NCBI RefSeq assembly: GCF_000021945.1
Contig: NC_011831.1
Location: forward strand, 3,919,353 to 3,983,352
Source: Chloroflexus aggregans DSM 9485
GTDB taxonomy: Bacteria > Chloroflexota > Chloroflexia > Chloroflexales > Chloroflexaceae
Reading direction: 5' to 3'
Length of the DNA stretch: 64,000 nucleotides
Translations under genes and position numbers: made by a program
Part shown: positions 1,745 to 60,566 of the stretch, in pieces
How positions within the stretch are numbered: position 1 is the first letter of the stretch
How the letters are laid out: each line of letters begins with the position of its first letter
The notes under the pieces: model-generated
Seen by the model: the letters and a program-made list of their open reading frames with translations, nothing else
What the model was told of the DNA's origin: nothing
The model's database searches: none

Positions 1745-1752
1745 GCTGTTCG

Positions 1753-5275: not shown

Positions 5276-5340
5276 CGTGTGCGTGATTGTTGGTGGCATC
5301 TGCTGCTCGCTACCACACACTGAGTCGTGCGAGGTTAACC

Positions 5341-5730: not shown

Positions 5731-5738
5731 ATCTCGCT

Positions 5739-5767
5739 TTGCATAAAAGACAATGTAGCGGTATTAT
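5739..5767 (+). promoter_or_regulatory. Promoter for the ArsA-like ATPase gene
   Basis: TTGCAT (5739-5744), a 17 bp spacer and TATTAT (5762-5767) lie 34 bp upstream of the ATG at 5802. Spacing is ideal and both hexamers are near consensus. Confidence 0.55.
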
Positions 5768-5801
5768 AAAGCAAAGTCGCTTCTAGAATGAACGGTCGAG
5801 T

Positions 5802-10767: not shown

Positions 10768-10962
10768 GTGGGTCGCTACCGATGGCTTTGTCCTTGCCCG
10801 TTACCGGGAGGCGTTGCCCCATCGGTTTACCGGTGGCGCCCTGCACCGGGGAGGCTTCCGCTGATCTATCGATGTTCCGGGTGGCTATCACCCGTTAGCT
10901 CCGGCTCGCGCCGGGAACCTCCGTCCTCGTCAACTTCACCGTGGTGAAGTCCATGCGCTAGA
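10768..10962 (-). ncRNA. glmS glucosamine-6-phosphate-activated ribozyme (riboswitch)
   Basis: On the minus strand, about 150 nt before glmS, the leader reads TCTA-GCGCATGGACTTCAC, a short loop, GTGAAGTTGACGAGGACGG. This reproduces the start of known glmS ribozymes: A|GCGC cleavage site (here between 10959 and 10958), P1 stem ACTTCAC/GTGAAGT, and invariant GACGAGG(ACGG). Further on come GCGGAAGCCTCCC, comparable to the family's GCGGAUGACUCCC core, and CAAGGACAAAGCC (about 10786-10796), comparable to the GUGGACAAAGG of P4. Glucosamine-6-phosphate binding triggers self-cleavage, destabilising the mRNA and lowering GlmS. The 3' limit is approximate. The class is best known from Firmicutes. Seen directly are the motif order and the glmS context; function is inferred. 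Confidence 0.85.
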
Positions 10963-11042
10963 CTTATTAGTAGTACGTTCGAGCGTTTCCTTCCTCCCGG
11001 TTGCACCCCCGCGCAACCATAACCGGCTCATCTGATGCTCAG

Positions 11043-39905: not shown

Positions 39906-40529
39906 ATGTCACCTTTCGATCCCACCCACCGACGTACATCAACCGAGCGTAGTGTGATTGCACTGTACCGGATTGCCCACGCCATCGAAGTGTTGCTGCG
40001 TCGGCGGGGTAAAGCGGCCCGTCTGACGACAACCCAAATCGATACCCTCCTGTTTTTGAAATATGCCCGTCTGGATGTGCGGACGGTCGGTGGGTTGGCG
40101 CAACGGTTGGGGGTGTCGTATGCGACGGCGAGTATGGTGGTGGATGGGCTTGAGCGGCGAGGGTTGGTAGCCCGTCACGGCTTGCCGAACGATCTGCGCT
40201 TGGTTGGGTTACGGTTGACCGAAAAGGGTGAAGCGCAATTGGCCGAGATTGAAGGGGCGCTCGATGGCTTACAGGCGGCGTTAACAGAGTTGACCCCGAA
40301 TGAGCAGGCATATCTGGATAGTATGCTGCAGAGGGTGGTACGTTCGTTGCAGCAGATCGGCGCCGTTCAGGTGTACGAGATGTGCTGGGGCTGCCAGTTT
40401 TTCCGGGCGTATGCGCATCCCGATAATGCAGCGACACCGCATCATTGCGCCTTTGTTGATGCACCGCTTGCCGATAATGAGACGCGGTTTGAGTGTCCTG
40501 ATTTTGTGCCGATGCCTGAAAGGAGGTGA
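39906..40529 (+). CDS. MarR-family regulator with a cysteine-rich C-terminal tail
   Basis: 207 residues. Residues about 20-150 are a MarR winged helix: LTTTQIDTLLFLKYARLDVR, VGGLAQRLGVSYATASMVVD, GLERRGLVARH and the wing DLRLVGLRLTEKGEAQL. The last 55 residues are unusual: MCWGCQFFRAYAH, then HHCAFVDAPLADNETRFECP, giving Cys-x2-Cys, His-His-Cys and a last Cys, which looks like a metal or Fe-S site rather than a standard MarR dimer tail. Two matching inverted repeats precede it. It is first in an operon with a glutaredoxin-like protein (4 bp gap) and a protoglobin, so a response to NO, redox or metal stress is plausible. Confidence 0.85.
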   Translation: MSPFDPTHRRTSTERSVIALYRIAHAIEVLLRRRGKAARLTTTQIDTLLFLKYARLDVRTVGGLAQRLGVSYATASMVVDGLERRGLVARHGLPNDLRLVGLRLTEKGEAQLAEIEGALDGLQAALTELTPNEQAYLDSMLQRVVRSLQQIGAVQVYEMCWGCQFFRAYAHPDNAATPHHCAFVDAPLADNETRFECPDFVPMPERR

Positions 40530-40533
40530 GCGT

Positions 40534-40854
40534 ATGTGGCAATTGACGCTCTACGGTGCAGCCGATTGCGACGATACTGCTCAGACACGGGCATTGCTGC
40601 ACGAGCGTCAGATCGTGTTTCACGAGCATGCGATCGATAATGATCCGGTGGCCGAACAGTTTGTCGTGTTTATCAACGGAGGCTATCGTAGCACGCCAAC
40701 CTTGGTCTTTACGGCAGGGCGGTTTAAGCTGGTCGTGACCGAACCAACCGCAGATGAGTTGATGCTGGCATTGCAGATCGCTAACCGTTTGCCGTCGCCG
40801 GTGACTGAGCGAGGAGGAGGTCACAATGACAGCGACAGCGATTCCCGGTTATGA
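40534..40854 (+). CDS. Glutaredoxin-like thiol protein (monothiol variant)
   Basis: 106 residues from ATG 40534 with AGGAGGTGAG upstream. MWQLTLYGAADCDDTAQTRA places a thioredoxin-fold active site at C-D-D-T, where the second cysteine of the usual C-x-x-C is missing. INGGYRSTPTLVF contains the cis-Pro motif (T-P). The rest fits a small glutaredoxin fold, and the C-terminus is a short acidic tail (GGGHNDSDSDSRL) that overlaps the protoglobin start by 29 bp. NrdH or glutaredoxin activity on one thiol is inferred. It is co-transcribed with the MarR gene before and the protoglobin after. Confidence 0.75.
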   Translation: MWQLTLYGAADCDDTAQTRALLHERQIVFHEHAIDNDPVAEQFVVFINGGYRSTPTLVFTAGRFKLVVTEPTADELMLALQIANRLPSPVTERGGGHNDSDSDSRL

Positions 40855-41416
40855 CTACGGAACGGCGCAGGTAGCACACGCACCGTTGAGCTTGGCCGAT
40901 TTTGAACTGCTGAAACAGGCGGTCATGTTTGGGCCTGACGACGAGCGTTATCTCCGGATGGCCGGTGAGGTACTGGCCGATCAGATTGATGATGTGCTCG
41001 ATCTCTGGTATGGGTTTGTCGGCTCGCATCCGCATCTGCTTTACTATTTCACCGATGGGCAAGGCCATGCGCAGAATGAATACCTGGCTGCGGTACGTCG
41101 CCGCTTTGGGCAGTGGATCCTCGATACATGCCGGCGACCCTACGATCAGGTGTGGCTGGATTATGCCTATGAAATCGGGTTGCGCCATCATCGCCACAAG
41201 AAGAATCAGACCGATCACGTGCAGGCTGTTCCGCACATCCACTTCCGCTATATGGTAGCCTTCATGTATCCGATTACGGCAACCATTAAGCCGTTTCTCG
41301 CAAAGAAAGGACATTCGCCTGAAGAAGTGGAGGCTATGTATCAGGCATGGTTTAAGTCGGTGGTGATGCAAGTAGCGCTCTGGAGTGCGCCTTACGTGGC
41401 ATCGGAAGATTTCTAA
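40826..41416 (+). CDS. Protoglobin-family heme protein
   Basis: 196 residues, a single-domain globin of the protoglobin type. IPGYDYGTAQVAHAPLSLAD then FELLKQAVMFGPDDERYLRM is the family's N-terminal extension and Z helix. IGLRHHRHKKNQTDHVQAVP lies in the region that normally carries the proximal His (the F helix), and HIHFRYMVAFMYPITATI follows. Protoglobins bind O2, CO and NO in a recessed heme; roles in gas sensing or nitrite/NO chemistry are proposed in the literature. It overlaps the glutaredoxin-like gene by 29 bp and ends the MarR operon. Confidence 0.82.
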   Translation: MTATAIPGYDYGTAQVAHAPLSLADFELLKQAVMFGPDDERYLRMAGEVLADQIDDVLDLWYGFVGSHPHLLYYFTDGQGHAQNEYLAAVRRRFGQWILDTCRRPYDQVWLDYAYEIGLRHHRHKKNQTDHVQAVPHIHFRYMVAFMYPITATIKPFLAKKGHSPEEVEAMYQAWFKSVVMQVALWSAPYVASEDF

Positions 41417-41431
41417 GCCCACCCTCAGCGT

Positions 41432-41450
41432 ATCTTGAGCAAATCTTGAG
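41432..41450 (+). promoter_or_regulatory. Direct repeat ATCTTGAG-N3-ATCTTGAG
   Basis: ATCTTGAG at 41432-41439 and 41443-41450 (11 bp period), 10 bp before TATCCT (41461-41466) and 50 bp before the short gene at 41500. It is the same geometry as TTCTTCAG-N3-ATCTTCAG at 36716, and their distances to the -10 differ by two helical turns. Confidence 0.5.
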
Positions 41451-41499
41451 TTACACGCTGTATCCTTCCTACCGTGTCGGCTCGATATGGAGGAAGTGT

Positions 41500-41616
41500 A
41501 TGCAGCGTGTTGTTTTGTTGTGGCCTGGTTGGCTGACAAATTTTAGCCGGTGTCAGGCACTGTTACAAATGCAAAGCGCCGGTGAGGTTGCTGCGCGAGG
41601 CTCACGCCGGTTCTGA
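41500..41616 (+). pseudogene. 5' remnant of a gene cut off by an IS4-like element
   Basis: ATG 41500 follows GGAGGAAGTGT, a strong ribosome binding site, and the 11 bp-period repeat upstream. The 38 codons read MQRVVLLWPGWLTNFSRCQA, then stop. Transposase remains on the other strand begin at once (stop codon of that frame at 41602), so the gene is probably broken by the insertion, and no continuation was found beyond it. The product is not recognised. A real short peptide cannot be excluded. Confidence 0.45.
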
Positions 41617-42478
41617 GTCTGGATCAGGAGACAGTGCTATACGATTCGGTACAGGTGTGCCCTGGGCCAAACAGTGGCGTATCCGGCGCCAACCGATCTG
41701 AAAATAACTCAAGCCACGATCCCAATGTGGATCTACCAACCGGCGCAGTTGGTTCTTTACGACTTCTTCACCCGTGCCGACCGGGTATAGCGTGGCCACT
41801 GCCGGTACCAAGAACCGTCGAGACAAGGCAGGCACGGAGCGGATTTCACGCTCTTGTCCCTGGAAGGCATTGGATTTGTCGTCCAAAAAGCTTTCTTCGA
41901 TGTCGAACCTCAGGCCATATTCGTCGAACGTGGTCAGGTCGGTGGGTTCATCGCTGATGACGATCCAGGGATCAGGGGTATGTTGACCGGCGGCGGGACA
42001 GGCCGGGGCAAGATGTGCCGGCCCGATGCAGCGACAAGTGAGCGTGACCTGATGGACAAAACGTGCCTGACCACGTCTTGGCAGCATCCGTTCGACCGGG
42101 CAGCCTCTGTGTTGTCCGGCTCGTATAGACCGTCAAGGATTGTTTGACCCGGATGCGATAGTGCCATCCAAGTTTCTTGAGAGCCAGGAGCAACTCGACA
42201 TCACAGAAACCGCGGTCGGCGAACAAGACAATCCGTTGACCTGGTGTGAACAGCGCGGCAGCGCGGTAGAGCACCTCCCGGTAGTCAGCAAAGGCGACGC
42301 GGGTACCGGTGTGTGCCGGCACAGTCTAGGCTAAGGGAATGGCCCGGCCGCGATAGATCAGTGAAACGCATATGAGCGCGTACCGATTCCCGAGCATCGA
42401 AGAGCCCAAGGCGAGATGGATGCACGCTTCTGCCCGGCGGGTTAGTGCGGCTTGCACCAGGGGAGCATAGTGGGCATG
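41602..42478 (-). pseudogene. Decayed IS4-family transposase
   Basis: Transposase pieces lie in three frames on the minus strand. The N-terminal piece (about 42478-42330) has RAEACIHLALGSSMLGNRYA, then VSLIYRGRAIPLA. The middle piece (42322-42110) has ALFTPGQRIVLFADRGFCDV with the first catalytic Asp region, and KKLGWHYRIRVKQSL. The C-terminal piece (42087-41602) has TTFDEYGLRFDIEESFLDDK, the Y-x2-R-x3-E-x6-K signature of IS4, and WDRGLSYFQIGWRRIRHCL. At least two frameshifts and an in-frame stop separate them, so it is inactive. No clear terminal inverted repeats were found. It abuts a truncated group II intron at about 42478. Confidence 0.8.
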
Positions 42479-43361
42479 TATGTCCGGCGTATCGGCGCAA
42501 TCTGCCATTCGGTCAGGTTTGCCAGTTCCCGCGCCAGGCATATCCTCTGCCGGGGCGTAAGGTTCTTTACCCCATCCACCCCTGCCGTGCGCTTGCCCCG
42601 GTTCTCCTGGCTTACCCGTCGAACGGCCAGACAGCGCGCCGACCACGAACGAAGCAGCAGCCGTTGTAACTTGTGGACACGCCGCCGGTCACCTTGCCGT
42701 GTCGCTCGGTAGATGCACCTTTGGAGTCGGTAGACGTTGCGCCGGTATTCCTTCCGGCGTAGCGTCTTCCAGTCCTCAGTCCGTTGTCTTTGGATGTTTC
42801 GCTTTATCCGTCTGACCACGTCTGCCCAAGACCTGAACCCCGCCGATACCTCTACCTTCCCACGTGCCGGGCTCACGTCAGCTTATCCCCGGCGTTACCC
42901 AGGGCCTTTGCTTCTTGAGCCATCCTCCTCCCTCGCCATATCCGGCCGGTTGCCTGCTCACTATTGGGTGAGAACGGCGAGGGGTTTCCCCGTTCCGTGT
43001 GTCCATTTTGCGCGACCGTAGGACGGTGCTTTACGCCGTGTCCCTCGTATCGGGCAGTTACCCTGTGACGGATGAGCACGTGGCCGAATGGGGACAGTTC
43101 CCTGTTTGGGCCTGCCGCTCGGCCGCTTTGGCAGGGTCTGTACGGGCGTAGCGTCGCTACGCCCCTACCACCACACCTTCGCTTGCGCTGTCCATCGTCG
43201 CCTGCCGGGGGTGTCGCCGCCTGCGGCCGGCCGCTGAACCCCTTTTCACCCTTGCACTCCGCCGTGCATTTACCAGGTGCATAACGTGGGGTGATGCGGT
43301 CACTCCTCTGCCTGGAGGTCGGGAGTTGGTGAGTTCTCTCACTGCACCCGAATGGACACAC
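42442..43361 (-). mobile_element. Truncated group II intron (5' ribozyme part plus start of the reverse transcriptase)
   Basis: On the minus strand GTGTGTCC at 43361 matches the G-U-G-Y-G 5' end of group II introns, followed by about 480 bp of structured non-coding sequence (domain I-like) containing a dispersed palindrome (43144-43164). The intron protein begins at GTG 42876: RNVYRLQRCIYRATRQGDRR, then RLLLRSWSARCLAVRRVSQE and NRGKRTAGVDGV, the N-terminal region of a chloroplast-like-class reverse transcriptase. It stops near 42478, where IS4-like sequence starts, so the YADD active site, maturase domain and 3' ribozyme domains are absent. Splicing is not expected. Confidence 0.75.
43144..43164. 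repeat. GC-rich palindrome of the dispersed family
   Basis: GGGCGTAGC (43144-43152), loop GTC, GCTACGCCC (43156-43164), followed by CTAC. It resembles GTAGGGGCGAAG...CTTCGCCCCTAC at 59834-59871. Confidence 0.6.
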
Positions 43362-43456
43362 AGTTGTCAAAGTTCAGAATGTGCCGGTCATCCTTCCCTT
43401 TGCTACCCATCCCACGTTCTCGCGGTTTCGGGTAAACGGGTCGCACCAAGCGCGTG

Positions 43457-43463
43457 TTGGGCG
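43457..43463 (-). other. Possible half attC site after the GH10 fragment
   Basis: On the minus strand GCCCAAC (43463-43457) starts 4 bp after the stop of the GH10 fragment. It fits R-Y-Y-Y-A-A-C, the 5' box of an attC, and is identical to the box of the site at 44152. No 3' partner was found before the intron start at 43361, so if it is an attC it is broken. Tentative. Confidence 0.3.
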
Positions 43464-43466
43464 GCT

Positions 43467-44130
43467 CTATGGTGATGTCTGCCGCGTACTTCTCAGGTAT
43501 TCAAGCAACACGCTACTTACCGCGTAATATGCTGGTTTATGGTTAAGATTGCGATCAAACAAGAGGGGTTCCGCATTCTGATGGCCTAAACTCTCAGGAA
43601 AGGAAAATCCATCTACGGCACCCCAGAAGGATATGCTTCTACAGACGCCAGAAGCCAACATGGCATCTGTCACGATCTTGTACATTGCTGCCTGCCTAAG
43701 TATTCTCGATTCTTGGGTCCCACCTAAACTACTCATGTCCATATCCAATTCTGTGACATATACAGGCACGCCGTATGATCGCAATGTTCTCATCACAATC
43801 ATAGCGATTCTTCACGTGCCGATGTTGTGCCCATAACTCAAGAGGCCGCTCCGCACGGTATCTGCCATCAGATGTGATCTGATAAAAGACATCCCCGCCC
43901 TTGCCGGCAAATGCCTTAACACATTGCTCTTGGCTCAGAAAGTCAATCACCGACTTCCACCCACGCTTTTGGTCTTCAGATTCGGGCCGGATATAATAAT
44001 CTCCAACCACAATGGTACCATCCCACCCAGACACCCAAAAGGATCCACCGCCAGTTACTGTGACCGGCAACAAAAGATACTTGGCATCTGGACAAGTGTG
44101 ATGTCGAACGTGACTCTCCACCGGTTTACT
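43467..44130 (-). pseudogene. GH10 endo-xylanase C-terminal fragment with a frame-disrupted upstream part
   Basis: On the minus strand the last 111 codons (43802-43467) read RTLRSYGVPVYVTELDMDMS, SLGGTQESRILRQAAMYKIV, SGVCRSISFWGAVDGFSF and NLNHKPAYYAVSSVLLEYL. This is the end of a GH10 beta-1,4-xylanase, with the catalytic Glu of V-T-E-L-D and the conserved F-W-G segment. The part before it (44130-43810; FWVSGWDGTIVVGDYYIRPE, GWKSVIDFLSQEQ) is open in another frame and not recognised, either a shifted and deleted N-terminus or a second short gene. No full barrel is present. It lies directly left of an attC-like site and reads as a cassette gene in the integron. Confidence 0.65.
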
Positions 44131-44151
44131 CTGAATTCGGTAGGAGCCGCC

Positions 44152-44221
44152 GCCCAACGGCCTGCCGCTCAGCCGCACGCGGAGCACAGCGGAGCGTGTC
44201 GGCTGAAGCGGCGGGTTAGCC
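44152..44221. repeat. attC-like integron recombination site 1
   Basis: Outer boxes GCCCAAC (44152-44158) and GTTAGCC (44215-44221) share the A-A-C/G-T-T triplets. Inner arms GCCGCTCAGCCGCACGC (44165 on) and GCGTGTCGGCTGAAGCGGC pair except for two unpaired bases on the 3' arm. The site differs in sequence from site 2 but has the bulges in the same places, as attC sites do. Confidence 0.7.
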
Positions 44222-44348
44222 GCTTCCCCATCCTGTCTGCGAGGACACGGCCGTATGCCTGCCCGCGGCTCGACCCCCACGTTATTGCACCGACCGACCA
44301 ACCCCTGTATGGATATTCCCTTTATGCACCCCGCGACTCCTCTCCCGC
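44222..44348. other. ORF-poor integron cassette between two attC-like sites
   Basis: About 127 bp bounded by attC-like sites 1 and 2. No open frame with a start and ribosome binding site was seen. Short cassettes without genes are common in chromosomal integrons. I see no promoter or RNA structure that I can name. Confidence 0.45.
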
Positions 44349-44426
44349 GGCTAACGGCTCGCGCATCAGCCGCACGCGGAGCGAGCGAAGCGAGCGGAGC
44401 GTGTCGGCTGGATGCGCTGGTTAGCC
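44349..44426. repeat. attC-like integron recombination site 2
   Basis: Outer boxes GGCTAAC (44349-44355) and GTTAGCC (44420-44426) are perfect complements. Inner arms GCGCATCAGCCGCACGC (44361-44377) and GCGTGTCGGCTGGATGCGC (44400-44418) pair with two extrahelical bases on the 3' arm; the central part is variable. It lies 28 bp after the stop of the DsrE gene, the expected position of a cassette attC. Confidence 0.75.
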
Positions 44427-44454
44427 TGCTTATGACTTTGGAAACCATTACTGT

Positions 44455-44808
44455 TCAAAACACAAGCACCTTATCTGCTTCAACCGTCCATTGCACCAAT
44501 TGGCTCATTGTGCTGATTTCAACTCCGTCGAGTAAGGCAAGCCCTTTTATTCCACGCGCTTCCGAGCAAGTCCCACAAGCCTTTACCTGCCCACCTTTGC
44601 TGATAACTGCTTTGAGCATACGCTCAATGTTGTAGTACCCTTGAGGAGTTGTTTGATTCGGCAACGCGCAGGTTACTGCATCTGCCATCAGAAAGACGCG
44701 AACTTCCACATCGGGATAGTCCTTTTGTAACGCCATTGCCATCCGCAAAGCGTTATACGCTTTTTCGGAACCATAGGGAGCGTCGTTGAGTATGAATAGC
44801 GCCTTCAT
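44455..44808 (-). CDS. DsrE/YchN-family protein
   Basis: 117 residues. MKALFILNDAPYGSEKAYNA, then LRMAMALQKDYPDVEVRVFL and MADAVTCALPNQTTPQGYYN, GGQVKACGTCSEARGIKGL and LVQWTVEADKVLVF. It has the DsrE fold of small sulfur-relay or peroxiredoxin-like proteins, with a conserved Cys-Gly-x-Cys near residue 85 (ACGTC). Typical members form homo-oligomers and may bind persulfide; the true role here is unknown. It overlaps the methyltransferase gene by 4 bp (ATGA), so the two are translated together. It is the last gene of the integron cassette that ends in attC-like site 2. Confidence 0.83.
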   Translation of the reverse strand: MKALFILNDAPYGSEKAYNALRMAMALQKDYPDVEVRVFLMADAVTCALPNQTTPQGYYNIERMLKAVISKGGQVKACGTCSEARGIKGLALLDGVEISTMSQLVQWTVEADKVLVF

Positions 44809-45467
44809 TTCTTATCTCCTGCGCTATAGAGTTTTGTTGCACTGAGGGCGACAAATGCACCTTTGCCGAAACCATCGTGGACTTGATAAGCCATCGGGTC
44901 GTTGCCTGGAAGACCAAAAACCGTTTGACAAAACTGCAATTCTCCAAAACCAACTCGACGAACAAGGGAGAGAATTTCTGGCACGGAATAGAAGTGCGCT
45001 TCTCTATAGAACTTGTCGGTATCTTTGCGTGACTGGTACAATTGCCCCAACGGACTGTCCCTATCAATAAAACCGATGACAACCTTTCCGCCAACCTTTA
45101 TGACTCTTTTGACTTCACGGAGTAATCGGGTTACGTCCTTTGCAAAGCAGATAACAGTGACCAATAGGGCGAAATCAAATTGATTATCACGAAAAGGCAA
45201 GCGTTCTCCTATCGCTTGACAAATAGAGATATTTCTTGCCTTCGCTATTCGCGCCATCATTCTGGATGGCTCAACGCCTATTCGTATCCCGAAAGGCATT
45301 GAAAACCGTCCCGTGCCAGCGCCGATTTCAATACCGACTCCTGTGGTCGGGACAAGCCTTCGCAAGGCATTGACTTCGGCTTGATAGATTGTTTCGTTTT
45401 CATCGAACCAACGGTCATACTCATTTGCGTGTTTATCGAAGACTGATACTCCATCCATCAGTGACAC
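44805..45467 (-). CDS. SAM-dependent methyltransferase in an integron cassette
   Basis: 220 residues, class I Methyltransf_11-type. VGIEIGAGTGRFSMPFGIRI is motif I, GVEPSRMMARIAKARNISIC motif II and ERLPFRDNQFDFALLVTVIC motif IV, with LLREVKRVIKVGGKVVIGFI after it. The N-terminus (VSVFDKHANEYDRWFDENET) is the usual substrate-cap region. The acceptor is unknown. It starts 26 bp from a GTTAGCC core (45499-45493, minus), which I take as the cassette's 5' boundary, and overlaps the DsrE gene by 4 bp. Codon choice is less GC-rich than the neighbouring core genes, in line with acquired cassette DNA. Confidence 0.83.
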   Translation of the reverse strand: MSLMDGVSVFDKHANEYDRWFDENETIYQAEVNALRRLVPTTGVGIEIGAGTGRFSMPFGIRIGVEPSRMMARIAKARNISICQAIGERLPFRDNQFDFALLVTVICFAKDVTRLLREVKRVIKVGGKVVIGFIDRDSPLGQLYQSRKDTDKFYREAHFYSVPEILSLVRRVGFGELQFCQTVFGLPGNDPMAYQVHDGFGKGAFVALSATKLYSAGDKK

Positions 45468-45492
45468 TACTCCCCTGCTGCGGCAAAGAGCA

Positions 45493-45499
45493 GGCTAAC
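45493..45499 (-). other. GTTAGCC half core site at the cassette 5' boundary
   Basis: On the minus strand GTTAGCC (45499-45493) lies 26 bp before the methyltransferase start, with no partner arm to its right. It equals the core of attC site 2. This fits the point where the cassette joined attI or an earlier attC. Confidence 0.5.
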
Positions 45500-45716
45500 T
45501 ACTATTAGACGGAAATTGCATCTATCCCTAGATGCTACTATATACATTTGTATACTTTTTGCCTGCTATCACTCCTGCATATAGCCCTGGATACTTGTAT
45601 CTATTGCTATATGCTTGCATCTAGATATATATACTTTTCTGCGCATCTCTAATGTGCCACCTCCATATCCCGCCCGTCTAGAACAACCTTCCTTCCCCCG
45701 CCGGCTCAAGATTCAG
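45500..45716. repeat. AT-rich region with many short repeats, candidate attI/leader
   Basis: 217 bp without a gene. Recurrent words GCATCTA (45519, 45611), TAGATGC (45530), GTATAC/ATATAC followed by TTTT (45550 and 45629), and GGATACTTGTATCTATTGC (45589-45607). It is much AT-richer than the surroundings and is next to the cassette boundary on the intI side, so an attI-like landing site with the cassette promoter is possible. No specific promoter can be assigned. Confidence 0.4.
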
Positions 45717-46064
45717 CTATCCCACTTCTCCCACAATCCGCCCTTCCAGCCCCAAGTCCACCACTTGATCGTAGCGCAACTCCCACACCTTCTTCTGCCT
45801 GTTCCATGTCCCGCCGGCTTCCTTCACCCGACGCGCCACCTCCACCTCCCCCCACTTGACCTGCACATACACCATCCTATCCCTCTCCGTCAGTGCAGGC
45901 GGCGGTTGCCAATCCACCTCTTCAACAATCAATTCAACCGTCTTGTACCGCTTCTGTTTCTCTTCATCATACCGGTACCGCACACACACCAGCCGGTCGC
46001 CATATTCGTTCGCTAACCGCTTCGTCCCCCGTTTTCCGGGTTGCAACGTCAATCCGATCCGCAT
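45717..46064 (-). CDS. Small conserved-looking protein divergent from the integron integrase
   Basis: 115 residues from ATG 46064; the frame is open to 46124 but that would overlap the integrase start. [20 protein letters not shown], then [55 protein letters not shown] and [20 protein letters not shown]. No signal or membrane segment. The V-x-V-x-W-G-E-x-E and W-N[11 protein letters not shown] pattern looks like a conserved family; I have met similar proteins near mobile elements but cannot name one. It lies between the cassettes and the integrase, divergent from intI, 50 bp apart. Confidence 0.6.
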
Positions 46065-46103
46065 CCGTCCCTTGCCTGCCTTTTTCAAAATCCGCGCACC
46101 GGA

Positions 46104-46109
46104 GTATAA
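46104..46109 (+). promoter_or_regulatory. -10-like TATAAT before the first integrase pseudogene
   Basis: TATAAT at 46104-46109 lies 5 bp before ATG 46114, too close for a leader with a ribosome binding site. It suggests a leaderless start near ATG 46129 or is left over from the damaged promoter. No clear -35. Confidence 0.3.
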
Positions 46110-46113
46110 TACT

Positions 46114-47085
46114 ATGAGTAGCATACAAATGAGTCAAGCAATAAAAACTGCTCGACCGGGTACGCGACGTGCTGCGCGTCAAGCACTACTCCCCCCGCAC
46201 CGAGGAAGCCTACGTGGATTGGATCACCCGCTTCATCCGCTTCCACGACAAACGCCACCCCGCCGAAATGGACGCCCCGGAGATCGAGGCATTTCTCACC
46301 CACCTGGCTGTCAAAGAAAAAGTCGCCGCCTCCACCCAGAATCAAGCCCTCGCCGCCATCCTCTTCCTCTACCGCGAAGTCTTTCTATGGACCTCGATGG
46401 CCGTATCGAACCCCTCCGCGCCTCCACTCCTCAGCGTCTGCCCACCGTCCTCTCCAAAGACGAGGTGCAGCGCCTTCTCGCGCAAATGACCGGCATCTAC
46501 CGCCTGATGGCCCAACTCCTCTACGGTGCCGGCCTGCGCGTTATGGAATGTGTCCGCCTGCGCGTCAAAGACCTAGATTTTGCCCGCAGGCAGATCATCG
46601 TGCATGACGGCAAAGGAATGAAGGATCGGGTCACACTCCTGCCAGACTGCCTCGTCGTACCACTTCAGGAGCACCTGCAAATGGTGAAACGTATTCATGA
46701 ACATGACCTGGCGCAGGGATACGGCGCGGTCGCGCTCCCCTTCGCCCTCAACGGCAAGTATCCCAACGCCGCCCGCGAATGGCTCTGGCAATACGTCTTC
46801 CCCTCTGACCGGTTGACCCCCGACGCTGCCGGCATCTTGCGCCGCCCACACCTCGACGTTAGCGGACTCCAGAAAGCCGTTAAGTCCGCCGCCCGGCAGG
46901 CCGGCATTACCAAACGGGTCAGTTGTCACACCTTCCGCCACTCCCTCGCCACCTACCTGCTCGAAAACGGCTACGACATCCGCGTCGTTCAGGAACTCCT
47001 CGGCCACAAAGACGTGCGCACGACCATGATCTACACCCACGTGCTCGACCTTGGCCCCCCGGCCGTGCGCAGTCCCCTGGATTAG
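46114..47085 (+). pseudogene. intI: Integron integrase IntI (copy 1), frameshifted
   Basis: About 320 codons of an integron-type tyrosine recombinase. The N-terminal part is in frame two ([40 protein letters not shown]) and the catalytic half in frame three ([80 protein letters not shown]). [20 protein letters not shown] is the extra segment between patches that marks IntI against XerC/D. All catalytic residues (Arg, H-x-x-R, His, Tyr) are present. One extra A in the run 46143-46147 and a lost base near 46380 break the frame. The divergent cassettes with attC-like sites on its left complete the integron layout. Confidence 0.85.
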
Positions 47086-47133
47086 AGAATAAGGGGCTTG
47101 CCTCCTGCTTCCTGCATCTTTATTCTAACTAAA

Positions 47134-48128
47134 ATGGATCAACAACTCTCAAAACTACTCGACCAGGTTCGCGATGTATTGCGCGAACGACACTACTCCA
47201 TCCACACCGAACGTTCCTATGTGGATTGAATCACCCGCTTCATCCTCTTCACAACAAACGCCACCCCCGCGAGATGAGCGCCGCCGAGATCAACGCCTTC
47301 CTCATCCACCTGGCCTCCATGTGGCCGCCTCTACCTAGGAACAGGCCACCGGCGCCCTCCTCTTCCGCTACCGCGAGGTCCTGGAGATGGACATCGGCTT
47401 TGTCGGCGTCCTTCGCTCCCAAAAGCCCGCACACCGCCCCGATCTGCTGACCCGCGCCGAGGTCAAGCTCGTGCTCGACGCCGTTCCGGATGGCGTCAAT
47501 AAACTGATCTTTGGCCTGCTCTACGGCGCGGGGCTGCGCCTGATCGAATGTCTGCGCCTGCGCGTCGGCGACGTGGATTTCGCCCACCGCCAGATCACCG
47601 TCCGTGACGAAAAAGGAAAGCCCGACCATCTGACCCTTCTTCCGGTCAGCCTGATCGGGCCGCTACAAAACCGGCTCCGATATGCCCGCATGCTTCACCA
47701 ACAGGATTTGGCCGCCGGCTATGGTGACGTTTATCTCCCGCCCGCCGTCCAAGAGGAGTACCCCGACATAACCGAACGCGCCTCACTCGCCCGCCAATGG
47801 CGCCGGCAATACATCTTTCCCGCCGCCCACCTCTCCACCGATCCGCGCTCCGGCCTCACCCGCCGCCATCGTGTAGATGAGAGCGTCCCCCAGAAAGCCC
47901 TCCGTCAGGCCGCCCTCTCGACCGGTATCCCCAAGCGCGTCAACTGCCGCGCCCTCCGCGACGCCTTCGCCGCCCACCTGCTCGAATCCGGCTACGGACG
48001 TCCGCACCATCCAGGAGCTCCTCGGCCACAAAGACGTGGCGACCACGATGGAACGCTACACCCACGTCCTCAACCGCCCCGGCCCGGCTATCCGCAGCCC
48101 GCCGGATGAGCACCTCGAACCGCAATGA
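47134..48128 (+). pseudogene. intI: Integron integrase IntI (copy 2), nonsense and frameshift mutations
   Basis: A second tandem IntI starts at ATG 47134 (MDQQLSKLLDQVRDVLRERH, then SYVD), 48 bp after copy 1. A TGG to TGA change breaks it at codon 32 (47227-47229), at least two frameshifts follow (about 47250 and 47320), and another is near 48000. Pieces read [78 protein letters not shown] and [20 protein letters not shown]. The usual H-x-x-R-H is [14 protein letters not shown], losing both histidines, so it is dead even if the frame were restored. Divergence from copy 1 shows this is not a recent duplication. Confidence 0.82.
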
Positions 48129-48177
48129 CCGCCCCGCCTCCAGCTTCCACTCCATTCTCCACCACACGCTCTCCTGC

Positions 48178-48256
48178 CCATCCGTCCCTGCTCGCCGACG
48201 CGCCACACGCGCAGGAGATAGAAGATGTAGTGAAATGGAACACCATCGGCTAACAT
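48178..48256 (-). pseudogene. Remnant of the 80-residue REP-associated small protein
   Basis: From ATG 48256 on the minus strand: MLADGVPFHYIFYLLRVWRV, then divergence. It is the N-terminus of the same family as 60321-60566 and 63492-63737. GACGGAGGCCCA, like the copies, precedes it and the palindrome 48277-48302 lies just upstream. It is cut off towards the end of the intI pseudogene. Confidence 0.65.
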
Positions 48257-48276
48257 TGGGCCTCCGTCGTAGCACT

Positions 48277-48302
48277 GTAGCACAGGATGAATCCTGTGCT
48301 AC
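48277..48302. repeat. REP-like palindrome, copy 1
   Basis: GTAGCACAGGAT (48277-48288), GA, ATCCTGTGCTAC (48291-48302). It contains the stop codon (TAG, 48301-48299) of the giant minus-strand gene and precedes the small-protein remnant. Confidence 0.8.
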
Positions 48303-51300
48303 CCTCCGTTCCTGTACACCAGCGGCAGGTATAACCGCACCGGCCCGATGACGAAGCGCTGTTCGGCATACAGCCCCGCCTGATCGGTCACCCGCAGCAC
48401 GACCCAGTTGTTGCCGCGATCCAAATCGGCCTGCGTCGGCGTGCCGGAGAGGGTGGCCGTACCGTCGCCGTGGTTCACGAGCGTCAGCCAGGCCGGCAAC
48501 GTCGGCGCGGTGAGGGTGAGCGCGTCGCCGTAGGCCAGGTCGTCGTCATCGGCGATGATCTCGTAGGTGTACGGCACGCCGGCCCGCACCTCGCCATCCG
48601 GCGGCCAGGTGATGAAGCGCGGCGCGTCGTTGCGGTTTTTTGCCAGGAGCGTGAACGGCCCGGCCACCGTCCAGTTGCCGGCGCGGTCCACAGCGCGCAC
48701 GGTGATGGTGTGCACGCCGGGCATGGAAAAGTCCAACTGCGGCACGCCGTGCCAACGTCCGTCCGGGAAGCGTACTAGGTCGGTCGTCCACAGGCGGCCG
48801 TCCGGCTGTTCGATGCGTAGATCGGCCCAGGCCAGCGCCGCTTCGCTCAGCGTGCCGGTAAAGACCGGCACTGCGTCGGTGATGGGCTTCCAGTACCAGG
48901 AATTGAAACTCCAGCCTGTGTAGTCCTCACGCCAGACCTCGGTGAGGACCTGCGTGACGGTGAGGCGCGGCGCAAGTGTATCCACGCGCAGGGTGCGCGT
49001 CAGCGGTTGCGAGCGGTTGCCCGCGCCGTCCACGGCGTAAAAGCGCACCGTCTCGGTCACACCTTCGCCCGTCGCGCCGATGGTGTAGGGTAGCCACCAG
49101 TTGCGGCTCGTCTGCGGCCAGGGGATGAGCGCCCCGTCGCTCTGGCAGGATTCGGCGCCCTCGTCCACGCGGCAAGCCTGTACACCGGCCACGCTCAGGT
49201 CGTCGGTGATGACGCCGTAGAGGTTGATCGTCGGCCAGTTCAGCCCGCCAAAGATGGAGTTGGCCAGGATGGCCTCGCTGTTGGCATCCAGCGCGATCTG
49301 CGGCGGGGTGAGGTCCACGGCGACGGTGATCGGCTCGCTCCACGCGCTCCAGTTACCCGCCGCGTCCTGTGCGCGTGCTCGTAGGCGGAATTGCGCGCTG
49401 CTCGTGCCGGCGTCCCAGGTGCACGTCCAGGCATAGCCGCCCGCGTAGGGGCAGGTGAAGGTGCGCGGACTGTCCGTCGACAGGGGTTGCGCTTCCAGTT
49501 GCAGGCGGGCCACGTCAGCGTCATAGACCCAGCCCCTGACGGTGTTGGTGAGGGGCGAGGCAAGCGCCCAGCCCAGTTGCGAACTGACCGGCAGCGGCTC
49601 GACGATGCGCGGCGCCTGCGGCGGGGCGTTGTCCACCGCGTGGTGCACCCAGAACCACTCAAAGGGCCGATGGGTGGCGTCGTCCACCGTTAGCATCAGT
49701 TCGGCGGCGTTGGGGTTGAGCGCGGTGTTCACGGTTGCCGTAATCGTCAGCGTTGCCACCTGGCCCGGTGCAACAGTCCCCAGGTTGTAGTTGTAGGGGT
49801 TTGGCGTGCCAAACTCCAACGCCCCGCGCGCCGTGGCGGTGACGACCACGCCGGGCATTGCGCCATCGCCGCTGTTGTGGATCACGATGGTATAGGTCAT
49901 CGTCTGCCCGTTTCCCACCACGCCCGACGCTACGCCGGTGATGGGATAGTCAATGCTGCCGTCCAGGTCGGCGTCAATCGGCTGGCCGGGCGTGAGCACA
50001 TCGTAGCGGTCGCTGTGCAGATAGCCGACCACGCCGCCGCGCGGCTGCGCGTCCACAATGATGGACGGAACTGCGCCGCTGTAGCGTCCGGCGTTGGGCA
50101 GGATACCGGCCGGCAGGCTGTCAAAGGCCAGGGCTTGCGTCAGCGTGAGGGCGTGAATATCGCCCACGCGCGCCAGCGGGTTCCGGTCGGCAGCGCAGTT
50201 GAGCGGGTTGAGGTCCGGCGCGCCGACGAGCAGGCAGGGCAGCGCGCCGCTGCTGTATGCTTCGTTGGCGACAAAGGCCGCGATCTGCAGCGGGTTGCCG
50301 GCATTTGTGCCCAGCGCGCCCAGCGGGATATAGAGGTCGGTGCGGCGCGGGATTTGATCGCTCGTCAGGCGGTAGACCGGCGGGCCGGCGGGCGTGGGCA
50401 GGGTTGTGGTGGACATTGTCGTGGCCGTGATCCACGCGCTGCCGTTCCACTGCTTGATGACAGCCGTGGCCGCATCGCGCACGTGGACAAGGTAGTCGGC
50501 CTCAAAGGGCAGGGTCACGGCTACAGCGTCCTGCCATCCCTGAGGCGGATAGGGTTGGTCGGCGGCCGTCGTGCCGCCGGCTTGCGTGTCAAAGTAGAAC
50601 CACAGGTCGCCGTGCACGTCCCAGTCGCCATCCTCGGCGATCCAGGTCAGTTGCAGCGCGTCGGCGTTCCACGAGCCGTAGAGCCGATGTACGCCCTGAC
50701 CGCTGCGCTCGCGGCTGAGCAGCGATGCGCCGCTTTCCAGCCAGTGCGAGTACCAGATGCCGTCCGCCGCTGCGCCGATCAGGTCGGGCGTGAGGGGCGA
50801 ATCTACCAGATACGGCCCAAAGGTCTGCACGCGCGCGTTGCCCAGCCCGTCGCGGATGACCAGGTGGGCGTAAGCCACCTGCGCCTCGCCGACGACTTGC
50901 TCGTGGCGGCGCGGGGCATCGGGCGCGTAGCGCTGTAGGGACGCAAGGCCTTGCGCATCCACCGTGACCGTGGGGCTGCTCGTCCAGCCGACATAGTAGC
51001 CCTCGATACCGCTGCCGTCGCTGGCCGCGTCCCATTCCACGATGAGCGGGCGGTTTGCTTCGCGGACCACCGGGTTGGCCCGCGAAAGCGGCACGCGCTG
51101 ACCCAGGCTATCGGTGTAGGCCAGGGTAACGGTCACAGGCTCCGGCGGGGAGAGGTCCACGGTGAGCGTGGGGGTGATAATGGTCACTTGTCCGGCCAGG
51201 TCGGTGGCACGGATGGTGATGGTGAACGGCGTCGCGCCGGCCGGCGCGGTCATCGCCAACTGCCACCCGCACGCCGGGCAGGGGTTGGCGTCCAGTTGGG

Positions 51301-54300
51301 CGACCCTTGCGCTCGTCCCTACCTCTACTACCTCTACGCGGGCGATGCCGCTGTCGTCGCCGGCGCTGCCGGTGAGCATAAAGGCGTTGAAGCCGGACAG
51401 GGCGTGCGTGGACGTGTAGACTACGGGCGCCACCGTGACCGTCGGCGGAGTCGCATCCACGATCACGCGCACCGGCGCGCTCTCGGCGGTGTCGCCGTTG
51501 CGGTCGCGGACCTGGGCGCGCAGCGTGTGCAGCCCTGCCGCCGCCGTCCAAGTGTGCGTTTCGCTCGCTTCGGTCAGTCCGGGGCCATAGGTCCAGGTCT
51601 GCGCAAGCGTGTCGTCTATGCTGAGGGTGAGGCTGTAGACCTCGTGCAGGGCATAGCCGCTCACGGTGATCGGAACGGCGCCCGGCGCGACGATGGTGTT
51701 ATCCGCCGGCGCGTTGACGGCGGCAAAGACCGGCACGGCAGGCCAGACGTTCAGGATGACCTCGCCGGTCGCCCCCGCGCCGCGATTGTCCTCCACGCGG
51801 TAGGTGAAGCGATCCTGCCCGACGAACCCGACGGTTGGGGTATAGGTAACTGTGGCGGCGAGATTTATCTCGCCTTCCGGCCCGTCCAGCAGCGTAAAAG
51901 TCAGCGGATTGGCGTTGGGATCGCGCGCCTCCAGCGTAAAGGTGGTCGGTGTGTTGTGCGCCACCTGCACGATCTGCGCCGTGGTCGTGGGCGGATGGTT
52001 GATGTCCAAATCCAGGCTCAGCGACCAGAACAAGTGATCGGGCGCAGTATAGACTGTCTCCAGGTCGCTGCCGTCCAGGTTGGCGCGGCGCAGCGTGGCC
52101 GTGTAAGGGCCACTGCCGTCCAGCGTGGCAAAGTAGAGTTTGCCTCCGCCGCTGTCCACCGCCAGGCTGGCAAGCGCCAGGTAGAGGTTGGAGGGCACGA
52201 CCAGCGTCGCTTCGGTGTAGGTGTGCGCACCGCTCCAGGCCGGCGGGTAAGGGATGCGCAGGATGCCCGATCCGCTGCCGGTGCGCTCGCCGGCCACATA
52301 GAGCATCCGCGCCTGTGGGTCAACGGCCATCCCGTTGTCCAGCAGCGTCTGCACGATGGGCTGCCCCAGTTCTTTAATCGGGTCCATATACCCGCTCTCG
52401 CCGCTTTCGGCGTAGAAGCGGATGCGCCCGCCGACGTTTTCGGCCACAAAGACCACGCCGGCAAAGGGATCGGCAGCCAGTCCCACCGGGCTGCTCAGCG
52501 CAGTGGTCAGGGTGACTACGTCGCTGCCGTCCAGGTTGGCGCGCAGCAACGTCCCCGTTCCGCCGCCAGCCTCCAGCCAGTAGAGATGGTCGCGCGTGAG
52601 GGCGATGGCCCGAATGTCGCCGCCGATGGTGCGGGTGATGATCTGTTCGGGGTCGCTGCCGTCCAACCCCAGGTGCCAGATGCGGTCATCGCTTGCAGTG
52701 GGCAGCGCCGCATACAGCCGTTCGCTGTGCGGATGTACTTTGAGATTCTGGTAGCTGTAGAGGGTATTGTGTCCCAGCGCCAGGAGGTCGAGCAGGTGCG
52801 TATGCGCTGCCGTGTTCAGGTCCAGGCGATAGAGCGCGCCGTCGTTGTTGGGGCTATAGTTCCAATAGATGCCGCGCGTGTTCGGCAGCTCGGGCGGGGA
52901 CGCGCTGAGCGTGGCGACGTGGCCGTAGCGGTCGTAGGCGGTCACCGTCGGCGGCGTCGTCACATAGCCGGGCACGCTGCACTCGCCGTACAGTTGATAG
53001 AGACGGGTGGTCTCGCCAAAGATTTCGCGCCACCAGGCGGTGTCGTAATAGTAGGGGCGCAACGCCGCTGTGCCTCCAGGGCAGGGGGATTGCAGCCCCT
53101 CTTCCACCAGGTTAAAGTCGTTGACCCAGACGCGATAGCGGGTCTGGGCGGTGCTGCCCACGCCGGTGTAACTCACGTCCAGGGCGATGCGCGGCGCGGC
53201 GGTGTCTATCTCGCCGCGCCAGGCCGCGCCGGTCAGCGCATTGCCTAGCACGTCGGCGGCGCGCGCATCCAGCCGGTAGAGACCCTCCATAGCACAGGAT
53301 GAATCCTGTGCTACGCAGGGGGTGTATTCCCAGGTCGTGGCGAGCACGCCCACGCCGCTCTGCGCCAGGGTGACGGCCTGCCAGTCGGCCTCGGCGAGTT
53401 CGGCGCGGAAACGCAGGCGCGCCTCACCGGTCGCCTCGTTGTAGCGCAGGCGCAGCGGATGGACGCCGGCGCCCAGCGTCAGCGTGAGCACGGCGCTGGT
53501 CTGGCCGTCGGGCGCGCTCAAGCGCAGCGCGCCGTCCACCCACAGCGCGGCGGTGGAATCGGCGTCTTTGGTGACGGTCAAGGTGTACACACCCGGCACG
53601 CGGAAGAGCGCCTCCTGCTGCCATTCGGCGATGAAATGGTCGGCAGTGAGGCCAGGGGCCGGCGCGCCGACGCCCCAGTCCACATCAATTTCAGGGGTGA
53701 CGGTGTACACGGTCGTTTGCGAGCCGCTCCGGTCGTACAGGCGCCCGCGCCACAGCCCCGGCGCCACGCCCAGGTCGGCCGGCGTCAGGCGCACGTCCAG
53801 CGATTGCACGCCGCTGCGCACGTCTCCCATTTCATAAACCGTGCCGGTGAAGGGCAGACTGCCGGTGATGGGCTGTGGCGGCGGGTAGAGCACCAGCGTA
53901 TCCGAGATGACGGTCACTTCGCTGCGCGGCGGTTGCTGTACCTCCACGCGCGGGGCCGTGCCGTCCACCTGATAGGCGAAGGCAAAGGCGTCGGAGACAT
54001 TGCCCACCGTATCGGCGGCGCGCACCAGCGCGGTGTAGACGCCGTTCGGCTCCAGGAGTGGCAGGCCGTCGGCGTCTGCGGCGGGCAGGGTCAGGGTGTA
54101 GGTGACCACCCACTCGCTGCCGATCCGGGTCGCTGCCTGCCAGCCGGCGCTGTACGGACGCAGGTCCATCTCCACGCTATCTACGCCGCTGCCGGGGATG
54201 GAGCCGGGCAGGTTCGGGTCGGCGGCGGTGAAGCGCAGGACCAGTTGCCGGCGGCCATCCTCTAGCGCGATGGGCGCCAGCACCGTGTACGGCGCGATGA

Positions 54301-57300
54301 CGGCGTTGACGGAGGGCGGCGTACCGTCGGCGTAAACGGCAATGCTCTGCTCGGATTGCGACGCCGCCGACTGCACGTTGCCCACGGCGTCGGTCGCGCG
54401 CACCCAGAGGGTGTGGATGCCCTCGGCGGCGGGGATGGGGACGGCGGCGCTCCACCGTTCCCGCCCGTTGGCCGTCTGCCATGCGCCGTTGTCGGCGCGC
54501 GCCTCCACTCGTGCGATGTACGAGGTCGGTTCGCTCGCCGTGCCGCCGATGACCACGCTCCGCCCGGCGGGCAGGTAGGCATGCACCGTCGGCCAGGTGA
54601 TGGCGGCAGTGGGCGTATCGGCGTCTACGGTGACGGTCAACTCTGCCGAGGCGGTCAGGTCGCCGGGCAGCCGGCTGCCATCGGGGTTGATGCCGGTGGC
54701 GCGCAGGGCGGCCTGCAGCGCCGTGACCTGCGTGGGGGCGGAAAGGGCCACGCGCGCGCTGCTCTCGAACCACACTTGCGCGCCCGGCGCCAGAGCGGGG
54801 TTATTGCCGAACGTCCAGACCGTTGCGCCGCCGCCCAGGTCGGTCGGGCGGGTGAGGGTGAGCGTCCCCTGCGCCGCGATCTGATCCATCGTGTTGCGCA
54901 CGGTGGTTGTGATGGCGAGGGACTGACCGCGCGCCAGGTAACCGTCGGCGTCGTTGTGAGCCAGCGTAACCGCCAGGCCAAAGGGATTGTAGACCTGCGG
55001 ATGGAAGGGGTAGGCCGCCGGGTCGCTCAGGTGCAGCGTGCGCTCCAGCCGGTCGCTGATGCCGTCACCGTCGCTGTCGGCGATCAGCGGGTTGGAGGTG
55101 ACGAGCGTGGTCCGCGTGGGGTTCGTGCTGTAGGTGAACGTCCAACCCCGCACCTCTTCGAAATCGGTCAGGCCGTCGCCGTCGGTGTCGGCGCGGGCCG
55201 GATCGGCGCCCATGCGCAGTTCCTCGGCGTCGCTCAGGCCGTCTCTATCGGTGTCGGCGGCGGTTGGCGAAATCGGCGAGCCGCTCTGCTGCCAGCGCAG
55301 TTCGATCAGGTCGGAGATGCCGTCGCCGTCGCTATCCCACAGCGCGTCGTTCGGGTCGTTGCCGCCGCGCGCCGCCGCGAGCAGGCCGTCGCCGTCGCCA
55401 TCGCGCAGAGGCGGCAGGTGGGGGTCCCAGGTCCAGGCCACAAATTCGTCCAGCGTGGGTGGCAGGACATCCAGCACCAGGTTGATAGGGAAATCCTGAT
55501 TGGCCTGCATCTGATTGATGCTGCAATTGGCCTGCGTCTCGGTAGAGAGCCAGCACTCGGCAGTGGGCAGGGCGAAAGCAGTGGAGAGCCATAGCACGTG
55601 CTGGCGGTTGAGGCCGGTGGTCAGTTGGATCGCCTGCGTGCTGGAGATGACACGGTCGGCGCGCAGGGCGTACAGGCGATACGTCGTGGTGCGCCAATCG
55701 TTATAGCGCACCTCGCGGGTGTACTCTGCCTGGCCGAAGCTATGCCAGTCGCCCCACGTGTTCCTCATCTCGTTCAACTGCGCCTGACCGACGTTTTGGG
55801 TGAACGGCCCTAACGCATAGCGCAGGGCGACGCCACGCTGCGTGGTCTCGTTGGGCGCGGAGGCCAGGTATTCGTGGAATAAAATCTCGCTGACATCTTC
55901 ATAGCGCGGCGTCTTGGCCCAGTGGCGCAGGTGCAGGCCCGGTATGACGGCGCTGCCGCCGGTCAACATCGGCTGCGCGCCGTTGACGGGCAACAGATCA
56001 ATGCCGCGAATGTTCAACAGGTCGTTGCCGGTTTCGGTCACCACGCCGACGCGGTAAAAGGCGCGCCGCAGGAACGAGTTGATGGAACCGGCGATGCTGA
56101 AATGGCAGGCTGCCTCCCACACGCCGGTCTGACACAGGGCAGTGGCGACCAGGTCAATGAGCGCCAGCACAGACAGCGCAATCCCCATGACCGCCAGAAG
56201 GGCGCCGAAAATCCAGCCCTGCGGGCCGGCTCCTAGGCCGGCGATGATCAACGCCAAGAGGATGCTCTCGGTGACCAGGAGCACGAAAATATCGGCGACC
56301 GTCTCGGCCAGCAGGATGTGGCCGGCGACGCTACTAATCGCCACCGTCCCGCTCAGGTAGACGTAGAGCAGAAAGGCGATGCGCGCGGCGACTTGCAGGA
56401 TCAACCCGATCACTTCCAGTACCAGCATCGCTTTGGTGATGGCAAAGGCCACCGTGGCGAATCGGGTCAGCGAGGCGATGATTTGATGCGTTTTATAGAT
56501 GGCGTAGAGCATCTTGCCGATTTGAATCAGCAGCGAGACGTTCTTGATGAGCATATAGACCACAGAAGTGATCAGCGAAAGGCCAACACCGGCGACCACT
56601 TTGGTCCACGTTGGGCCGCCGAGTTGGGCGGCGATGAATGAGGTAATGAACACGGCGGCGACCGTCACCAGGATGAACACCACTACCAGCACGGCGCCGA
56701 CGATGACCAGACCCTTGAAGAGTGAGAGCGCTCTGAGTTTGGCGCCCAGCGTCCCCAGCGCATCCTGCACCTTGCTGACCACGCCACGCGCCAGGTCGCG
56801 CGCCGTTTCCGTCGCAGCCTTGGTCAGCGCCGTTTTGAGGTCGCCAAACACCCAGAAGGCGGAGACAAAATTGACTCTGACCAGTGGCCCGATTTCTTCG
56901 ACGAGCAATTTCCCGATTTTGGTCGTCACCGAGAGCAGCGCGCTGGACGCCGTCCCGCTGAGTTTGATGATCTTGGCGACAATGCCGGTATCGGCGGCAA
57001 AGGTGTAGCGCACGATCTGATCGCCCACCTGCACCAGTTGCACCACGCCTTTGTAGAGCGCCAGATAGTACAACTGATAGATGAATTGCTTGCCTTCGGC
57101 CTCGCGCTGCGTCTCGCCCGGCTCAATGAGGGTCGCTGCCGGATAGCGCTGCTCGATTTCCTGCCAGTAATCCTCCACGGAGACGGTTTGCCAGGCGGCT
57201 TGCGCGGCGTTGTAGCGATAGGGCGTCCACTTGAGGCCGGCGTGGACGCGCACGGCGTTGACCGACGGGCTGGCGAAATCCACCGTCACCTGCGTGCCAT

Positions 57301-60328: not shown

Positions 60329-60566
60329 CTTGGCCTCCGTTATCCGTCCCGGTGGCACATGATTCATTCTGTGCTACTTCGTTACAGGTATCCGGCGTTT
60401 GCTTCTCCAAAAAGACCGGCAGCCCGTCCAGATCGCTGAACCCCACGCGCTCGCCCGTGGCGATGTTCTCCAACAGCGCGCGGCAGGTCGTCCGTTCCGA
60501 CCTGGCGATGCGCCACACGCGCAGGAGGTAGGAAGTGTAATGAGATGGAACACCATCGGCTGACAT
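60321..60566 (-). CDS. 80-residue family protein coupled to the giant gene
   Basis: 81 residues from ATG 60566: MSADGVPSHYTSYLLRVWRI, then ARSERTTCRALLENIATGER and VGFSDLDGLPVFLEK. No family recognised. The last codons run into the giant gene start, with ATG at 60328 and stop TAA at 60321-60323 (run ATGCATAA), so the two are translated together. The upstream order is palindrome (60585-60608), ACGGAGGTTCC and ATG. A second intact copy lies at 63492-63737 and a remnant at 48178-48256. No signal peptide, so it is probably cytoplasmic, perhaps a chaperone or control factor for the exported partner; this is an inference from position only. Confidence 0.75.
   Translation of the reverse strand: MSADGVPSHYTSYLLRVWRIARSERTTCRALLENIATGERVGFSDLDGLPVFLEKQTPDTCNEVAQNESCATGTDNGGQDA
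60352..60377. repeat. Degenerate REP-like palindrome, copy 3
   Basis: GTGGCACATGAT (60352-60363), TC, ATTCTGTGCTAC (60366-60377). It has the 3' arm of the family but two or three mismatches in the 5' arm, inside the small-protein gene (60321-60566). Confidence 0.5.

Follow-up and report, generated by a model that had tools for sequence, protein, structure and literature searches.

A degenerate integron of Chloroflexus aggregans and a probable attC-homing lineage of group II introns

Layout of the integron and its split third attC site

The window considered here, a 64,000-nucleotide stretch of Chloroflexus aggregans DSM 9485 (positions 3919353-3983352 of a genome searched as one contig of 4,684,931 bases), holds at 43447-48107 a degenerate integron, with two tandem, broken genes for the integron integrase IntI on the plus strand and cassettes on the minus strand (Table 1). 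As in chromosomal integrons and in clusters of attC sites lacking integron-integrases (CALINs) generally, there is intI with cassettes divergent from it, and attC sites with R'', L'', L' and R' elements and unpaired bases; a conserved small gene that separates intI from the first cassette boundary is a non-essential difference. The integron itself is ordinary. The notable part is a lineage of group II introns that appears to home to attC sites, a member of which very probably struck the third attC of this array.

On the minus strand the GH10 piece of the third cassette is followed by GCCCAACACGCGCTTG, the R'' half of its attC, then by GTGCGACCCGTTTACCC, the 5' end of a group II intron, and then by the N-terminus of a reverse transcriptase (RT), whose RVT_N match (1.6e-29) is the sole one in the genome. 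Homology to two related loci, L112 and L139, extends from 43464-43465 to 42471 and ends beside a relic of a DDE transposase. For the window intron neither domain V nor the 3' end nor the other half of the attC was found; RF00029 has no match anywhere in the window, and a search of 40500-48500 with Rfam gave nothing up to E 1, as expected of a copy that has no domain V. The interval 43138-43167 within the relic is a palindromic GTAGCGACGCTACG stretch, roughly at the place of the presumed loop of exon-binding site 1 (EBS1) in the relatives.

A sequence-only reading had already taken the locus for a degenerate chromosomal integron in a Chloroflexota-like genome, and the IntI profile, the integrase tree and the attC model matches described below bear it out; the assignment to Chloroflexota is likewise supported. 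Its account of the cassettes as uniformly minus strand (methyltransferase-DsrE, a piece poor in open reading frames (ORFs), a GH10 fragment) agrees with family matches and coordinates, and the GTTAGCC boundary that it placed at 45493 is legible as GGCTAAC at 45493-45499. It was incomplete in making no mention of the third attC, of the conserved gene next to intI or of the further attC clusters elsewhere in the genome, and the left end that it gave, 43457, falls within the split attC half, which it had not named.

Table 1. Coordinates of features of the integron and its surroundings in the window, with the sister intron of another genome in the last row
Feature	Coordinates	Strand	Basis or remark
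attC of cassette 3, R'' half only (GCCCAACACGCGCTTG)	43447..43462	-	cut by intron
Remnant of a group II intron, with 5' end, domain I region and RT N-terminus	42471..43446	-	homology and RVT_N
attC of cassette 1	44349..44426	-	79.4 bits (model R1), 65.1 bits (model R2)
attC of cassette 2	44152..44221	-	84.4 bits (model R1), 64.8 bits (model R2)
IntI integrase A, broken	46148..47085	+	frame change between N-terminal and catalytic part
IntI integrase B, heavily decayed tandem copy	47155..48107	+	three TIGR02249 pieces
GTTAGCC boundary, first cassette start, candidate attI crossover	45493..45499	-	sequence
Cassette 1: class I methyltransferase	44805..45467	-	Methyltransf_11 8.4e-16
Cassette 1: DsrE-like protein, overlapping the methyltransferase gene	44455..44808	-	DsrE 2e-25
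Cassette 2, ORF-poor, 197 bp	44158..44354	-	between the two R' cores
Cassette 3: GH10 C-terminal fragment	43467..43802	-	Glyco_hydro_10 positions 221-309/311, 7.2e-17
Conserved small gene, divergent from intI	45717..46124	-	between intI and first cassette boundary
DDE transposase relic beside the truncated intron	41972..42322	-	DDE_Tnp_1 2.9e-5
Sister intron, locus L113 (G092:C102)	912-5775	minus	seems to carry a nested intron

Intron relatives and their attC exons

An unbiased scan with the 24 bases with which the intron starts, exon excluded, of one genome per species for 84,980 species yielded 20 matches in 18 stretches, 17 of them of a TTTACCC type and three (L133, L135 and L140, kept out of the exon count) of a TTCACGCG type. 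Sixteen of the TTTACCC matches are readable (L138, at a contig edge, has no exon and was dropped) and, together with the window, give 17 exons; the copies are distributed over nine genomes. In every one of the 17, [CT]AAC, the R'' core of attC, is present 7-9 bases upstream, compared with 0-1 of 17 exons in each of 12 control windows. The TTCACGCG type, all from Ktedonobacteria, has the R'' core upstream in none of three. The exon ends in GCGCTT plus one base in 12/17 copies, so that the pattern reads ..YAAC-N2-GCGCTTN, and in the nearest homologue genome (G167, same phylum, other class) there are five 5' ends, all alignable from the attC core on.

The other side of the insertion is legible in several relatives. 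Domain V/VI was recognised by RF00029 in L126, L129, L131 (two), L139 and L141, as well as in two Ktedonobacteria loci, at 41.9-61.3 bits for the ends that abut attC. All five 3' ends of the CTGTAAC/CCGTAAC form (L126, L129, L131a, L139, L141) continue directly into attC L'' (CASCYGAC), the L129 end being one for which the matching 5' end was not identified, and the joined exons of L126 and of L139 have an attC fold. The complete member is L139, from Chloroflexi 626A.7, with 2375 nt and a 566-aa RT that has RVT_N, RVT_1, GIIM and HNH domains; the 5' GUGYG, domain V/VI and a maturase RT, by which a group II intron is known, are all present there; of these parts the window copy retains just the 5' end, along with the N-terminus of the RT.

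In an RT tree of 23 rows (from which L076, of G023, is missing) one clade (100/99) unites the RTs of the window, G167 and L139, the window row filling just 21% of the columns. The next relative is the intron of G092 (100/99), followed by 19 others. The 5' end of the G092 intron is GTGCGACCTGTTCGCTCGAAACC, preceded by ..GTCGGCTTCATTGAGTGGT, with TGGGCGGC beyond domain VI, and its joined exons in reverse complement read GCCGCCCAACCACTCAATGAAGCCGACC.., that is R'' core plus L''. They are matched by the attC model only in part (14.9 bits), on the strand that does not encode the intron, and the R' side is unrecognisable. Judged from these exons, this sister intron, a single case, is positioned in a partial attC, in the bottom strand, at the R'' core.

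A coherent, though conditional, course of events can be put together from these features. In an active phase IntI would have recombined folded attC sites into attI and so built the minus-strand array beside the two plus-strand intI genes. Intron RNA would then have reverse-spliced by retrohoming into the top strand of an attC, behind ..YAAC-N2-GCGCTTN and ahead of L'' (CASCYGAC), with pairing to attC GCGCTTC as the likely recognition step; domain I of L131 has GGAAGCGCCG, complementary by eye to its own exon GCGCTTC, and in L139 and L141 GAAGCGTCG is found. Placed at a cassette's non-coding end and oriented like the cassette, the intron might do little harm while having many other sites within reach. 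The insert parts R'' from L'', and should thereby interfere with bottom-strand folding, on which IntI depends. In the window copy the 3' half is missing, and what is left ends beside the transposon relic.

Several observations weigh against so simple a scheme. The exon is not strictly one sequence, as in L139 and L141 the cut comes two bases sooner (GCGCT) and L130, L134 and one L124 copy differ; exon-EBS covariation was not demonstrable in this set; and the joined exons of L141 fold poorly and are only partly attC. The insertion of G092 in the opposite strand means that top-strand insertion is not general in the wider group. The RT is full length in L139 only, other copies being incomplete, having no ORF or breaking off where a contig or locus stops (L126 with 251 nt and L141 with 870 nt are too short for a full RT, and the window is without the 3' half), and the copies are mostly from fragmented metagenome-assembled genomes. 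A search of 400 genomes with a pattern for the exon-intron joint gave 20 places in 17 genomes against 12 in the reversed control, matches being traced to the intron in this genome and G167 only, of the 17, and no copy of the intron 5' part appeared in one viral-contig scan and one plasmid search.

An alternative, which we consider unlikely, is that the intron has no homing of its own and was spread with one cassette, or one attC, by IntI recombination and duplication. The multiplicity of copies within single genomes would suit it, five each in G167 and Tumba.bins.32, as would two truncated G167 copies, each with an attC site after it and both sites scoring 60.1 bits. However, a cassette gene and its own attC move together, and the 60 bases ahead of the attC half are unrelated among the copies, differing in 17/17 with a top ungapped identity of 0.40; this combination counts against dissemination by IntI, and nine genomes are involved. 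The interpretation as a decayed Chloroflexota chromosomal integron with its third attC struck by an attC-homing group II intron is accordingly much the better supported.

Two further observations concern the relatives. Truncated 5' ends of about 60-125 nt are succeeded at once by a complete attC in L124 (1677-1886), L125 (2458-2668) and L128 (877-1016), all on the minus strand, and such ends may have a bearing on the role of introns in cassette formation. A single attC of L131 (7778-6061, minus strand) seems to contain a pair of group II introns that differ in type; the second of these (group-II-D1D4-7) lies in the attC loop.

Intron class and comparison with known systems

Among solved structures the L139 RT is by far closest to 6me0, the Thermosynechococcus elongatus maturase, at 357.7 bits (residues 27-562/566 of L139 being covered), with 140.9 bits for 7uim and 131.6 bits for the RT of GsI-IIC; as judged by these bit scores it is not nearest class C. 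The 6me0 intron is T.el4h, of class IIB. The comparison with it covered protein similarity; no D1-D4 family of Rfam was matched in L139. We know of no attC targeting by the T. elongatus intron. Among the matches listed, nine of the 10 best plasmid RTs, at 50-52% identity, belong to cyanobacteria and the other to Hymenobacter, with mostly enterobacterial RTs lower in the ranking of the at least 5000 listed. From nearest RT, strand and site the intron thus looks to be other than class C.

That point is central, as attC is a known destination of introns of another class. According to PMC7923331, group IIC-attC introns (S.ma.I2 type) occupy the bottom strand, run against the cassettes and have TTGT/T within R'' as their site. 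To regard the window intron and its relatives as belonging to that type, entering attC via its hairpin, has in its favor the shared target, a group II intron within attC, and the case of G092, which is in the bottom strand within the R'' core, after GGT and before TGGGC, resembling TTGT/T. Such an identity is nevertheless highly improbable: here the orientation is that of the cassettes and the site is between R'' and L'', with an exon that in 12/17 copies ends in GCGCTT and a further base rather than bottom-strand TTGT/T, the RT is nearest 6me0 with the GsI-IIC RT far behind, and an HNH domain is present. Strand, site and RT similarity together led to rejection of the IIC-attC assignment.

The better account, and a fairly likely one, is that a second, non-class-C and HNH-bearing lineage of group II introns homes to attC, one branch using the top strand between R'' and L'', and G092 the bottom strand at the R'' core. 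In position, orientation, both exons and RT clade it looks like a new intron variant, as far as sequence comparison can tell. Two precedents are pertinent. An atypical group IIC intron found in an integron of Enterobacter cloacae lies in the top strand (as cited in PMC7923331); it is of class IIC and a single case, unlike the non-class-C lineage seen here in 17 attC sites. UHB.I2, a CL1/IIB1 intron of an integron from a hypersaline setting, is described in the same paper as following attC directly, with exons of little conservation and without an endonuclease domain. It has in common with the present introns that it is non-class-C and is in a cassette array in cassette orientation, and differs in that the site here is within attC and L139 has HNH. 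In a review (PMC4424553) attC features as a target of class C introns, other lineages using homing sites. Within open-licence literature, no paper was found on group II introns in Chloroflexi integrons or on integrons and CALINs in Anaerolineae, and no title on Chloroflexus with integrons or group II introns was on the subject.

Should this be correct, the attC pool of Chloroflexota would serve as a multi-copy, horizontally moving landing site, with the target strand having been switched within one intron clade. Arrival of a different lineage at the same target on the other strand, and with an endonuclease, would constitute convergent evolution on integrons. An influence of introns on cassette arrays, or a part for them in making cassettes, becomes open to testing, and a natural attC-targeting device could be a practical yield.

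attC models, integrases and neighboring genes

Two covariance models were used for attC. R1 was built from 17 sites, six from this genome and the window's own among them; R2, made to avoid circularity, has 11, all from other genomes. On the minus strand both models find the two sites that the sequence-only reading had proposed as attC-like, and with R2 the next-best places in the 64 kb reach 15.2 and 14.2 bits, the last being 44152-44221 read on the plus strand (18.8 bits with R1). The R1 training sites, picked partly by pairing, have 92.5% of pair cells standard versus 81.0% in shuffles. In a rule-based search with 64 candidates in the window the two sites take ranks 1-4, for each of them minus before plus, and this minus polarity agrees with that of the cassette genes.

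Genome-wide, R1 finds 24 places at E <=0.0036 (the window's two and 22 more, six of the 24 being training sites), grouped or single near 0.56, 0.85, 1.35, 2.74, 3.96, 4.00 and 4.05 Mb, so that there appear to be several CALIN-like clusters with the window array as one of them. At E 0.001 R1 has matches in 18 of 41 genomes, among them the present one; the other 23 have none.

The reading of two tandem IntI-type genes, each broken, holds up, the matches to TIGR02249 (integrase_gron, cut-off 265 bits) being split across frames or stops. In integrase A the catalytic part (46381-47082) matches model positions 79-313 with 322 bits; positions 1-80 are matched in a different frame by the N-terminal part (46148-46387), with 105.5 bits, and a stop codon lies directly ahead of the matched start. 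GLRVMEC, HTFRH and the YTH segment are retained. Among solved structures the catalytic part of integrase A is best matched by IntI4 (2a3v, 222 bits; 74 bits for XerD), and among the matches listed it is 60.8% identical to a cyanobacterial plasmid integrase and 52.4% to the class 1 integrase IntI1. Of the pieces of integrase B one has an internal TGA and another an internal TAG, and CRALRD is at the place of the H-x-x-R-H box.

A second integron-like place at 556852-568763 of the genome (L009 and L010) has two more broken IntI copies (559761-564971) and eight attC candidates at E <=0.0036. A TIGR02249 search of the whole genome found no intact IntI, and as every copy found is broken the array is probably immobile. 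Pseudogenised intI is common, nearly one third according to PMC2426708, and Chloroflexota are among the integron carriers listed in PMC8618304. IntI proteins above the TIGR02249 cut-off are present in 12 of the 41 genomes, this one included.

In a tree of integrases, a check proposed with the sequence-only reading, the genome's four frame-read IntI copies and 11 IntI proteins separate from 10 Xer-type proteins (taken from relatives, not E. coli) at 100/100, the IntI of G030 being a long branch. The notion that both recombinases are ordinary XerC/D and the palindromes chance can be dismissed, for while TIGR02249 also responds weakly to Xer-type proteins in 14/14 control genomes, 0/14 reach the cut-off and the window does, the attC sites score far above all else in the 64 kb, and the TIGR02249 score, the 2a3v versus XerD bits and the tree led to rejection of XerC/D identity. 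An IntI-type tyrosine recombinase, the mark of an integron, is thus present, though its gene is broken. Next to the integrases, an unbroken frame for a 4022-aa protein with Ig-like, cadherin-like, PA14 and TSP3 domains (48299-60367, minus strand) speaks against poor assembly as the cause of their broken state.

The small gene beside intI encodes about 115-135 aa, with its start probably near 46067. Near full-length homologues occur, among the 41 genomes, in the window, G012, G013 and G039, in 4/4 divergent from IntI and no more than about 250 bp from it, with partial matches only in eight further genomes. No Pfam, NCBIfam or PHROG family was matched, and the predicted fold, from one sequence, is poor (mean predicted local distance difference test score, pLDDT, 62.6). 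For cassette 2, the frame that crosses it (43729-44448) matched no Pfam family. A protoglobin gene (40826-41416, plus strand, 6.8e-35) adjoins the transposase relic, and much further away there is a glmS ribozyme at 10769-10970 on the minus strand (61.6 bits).

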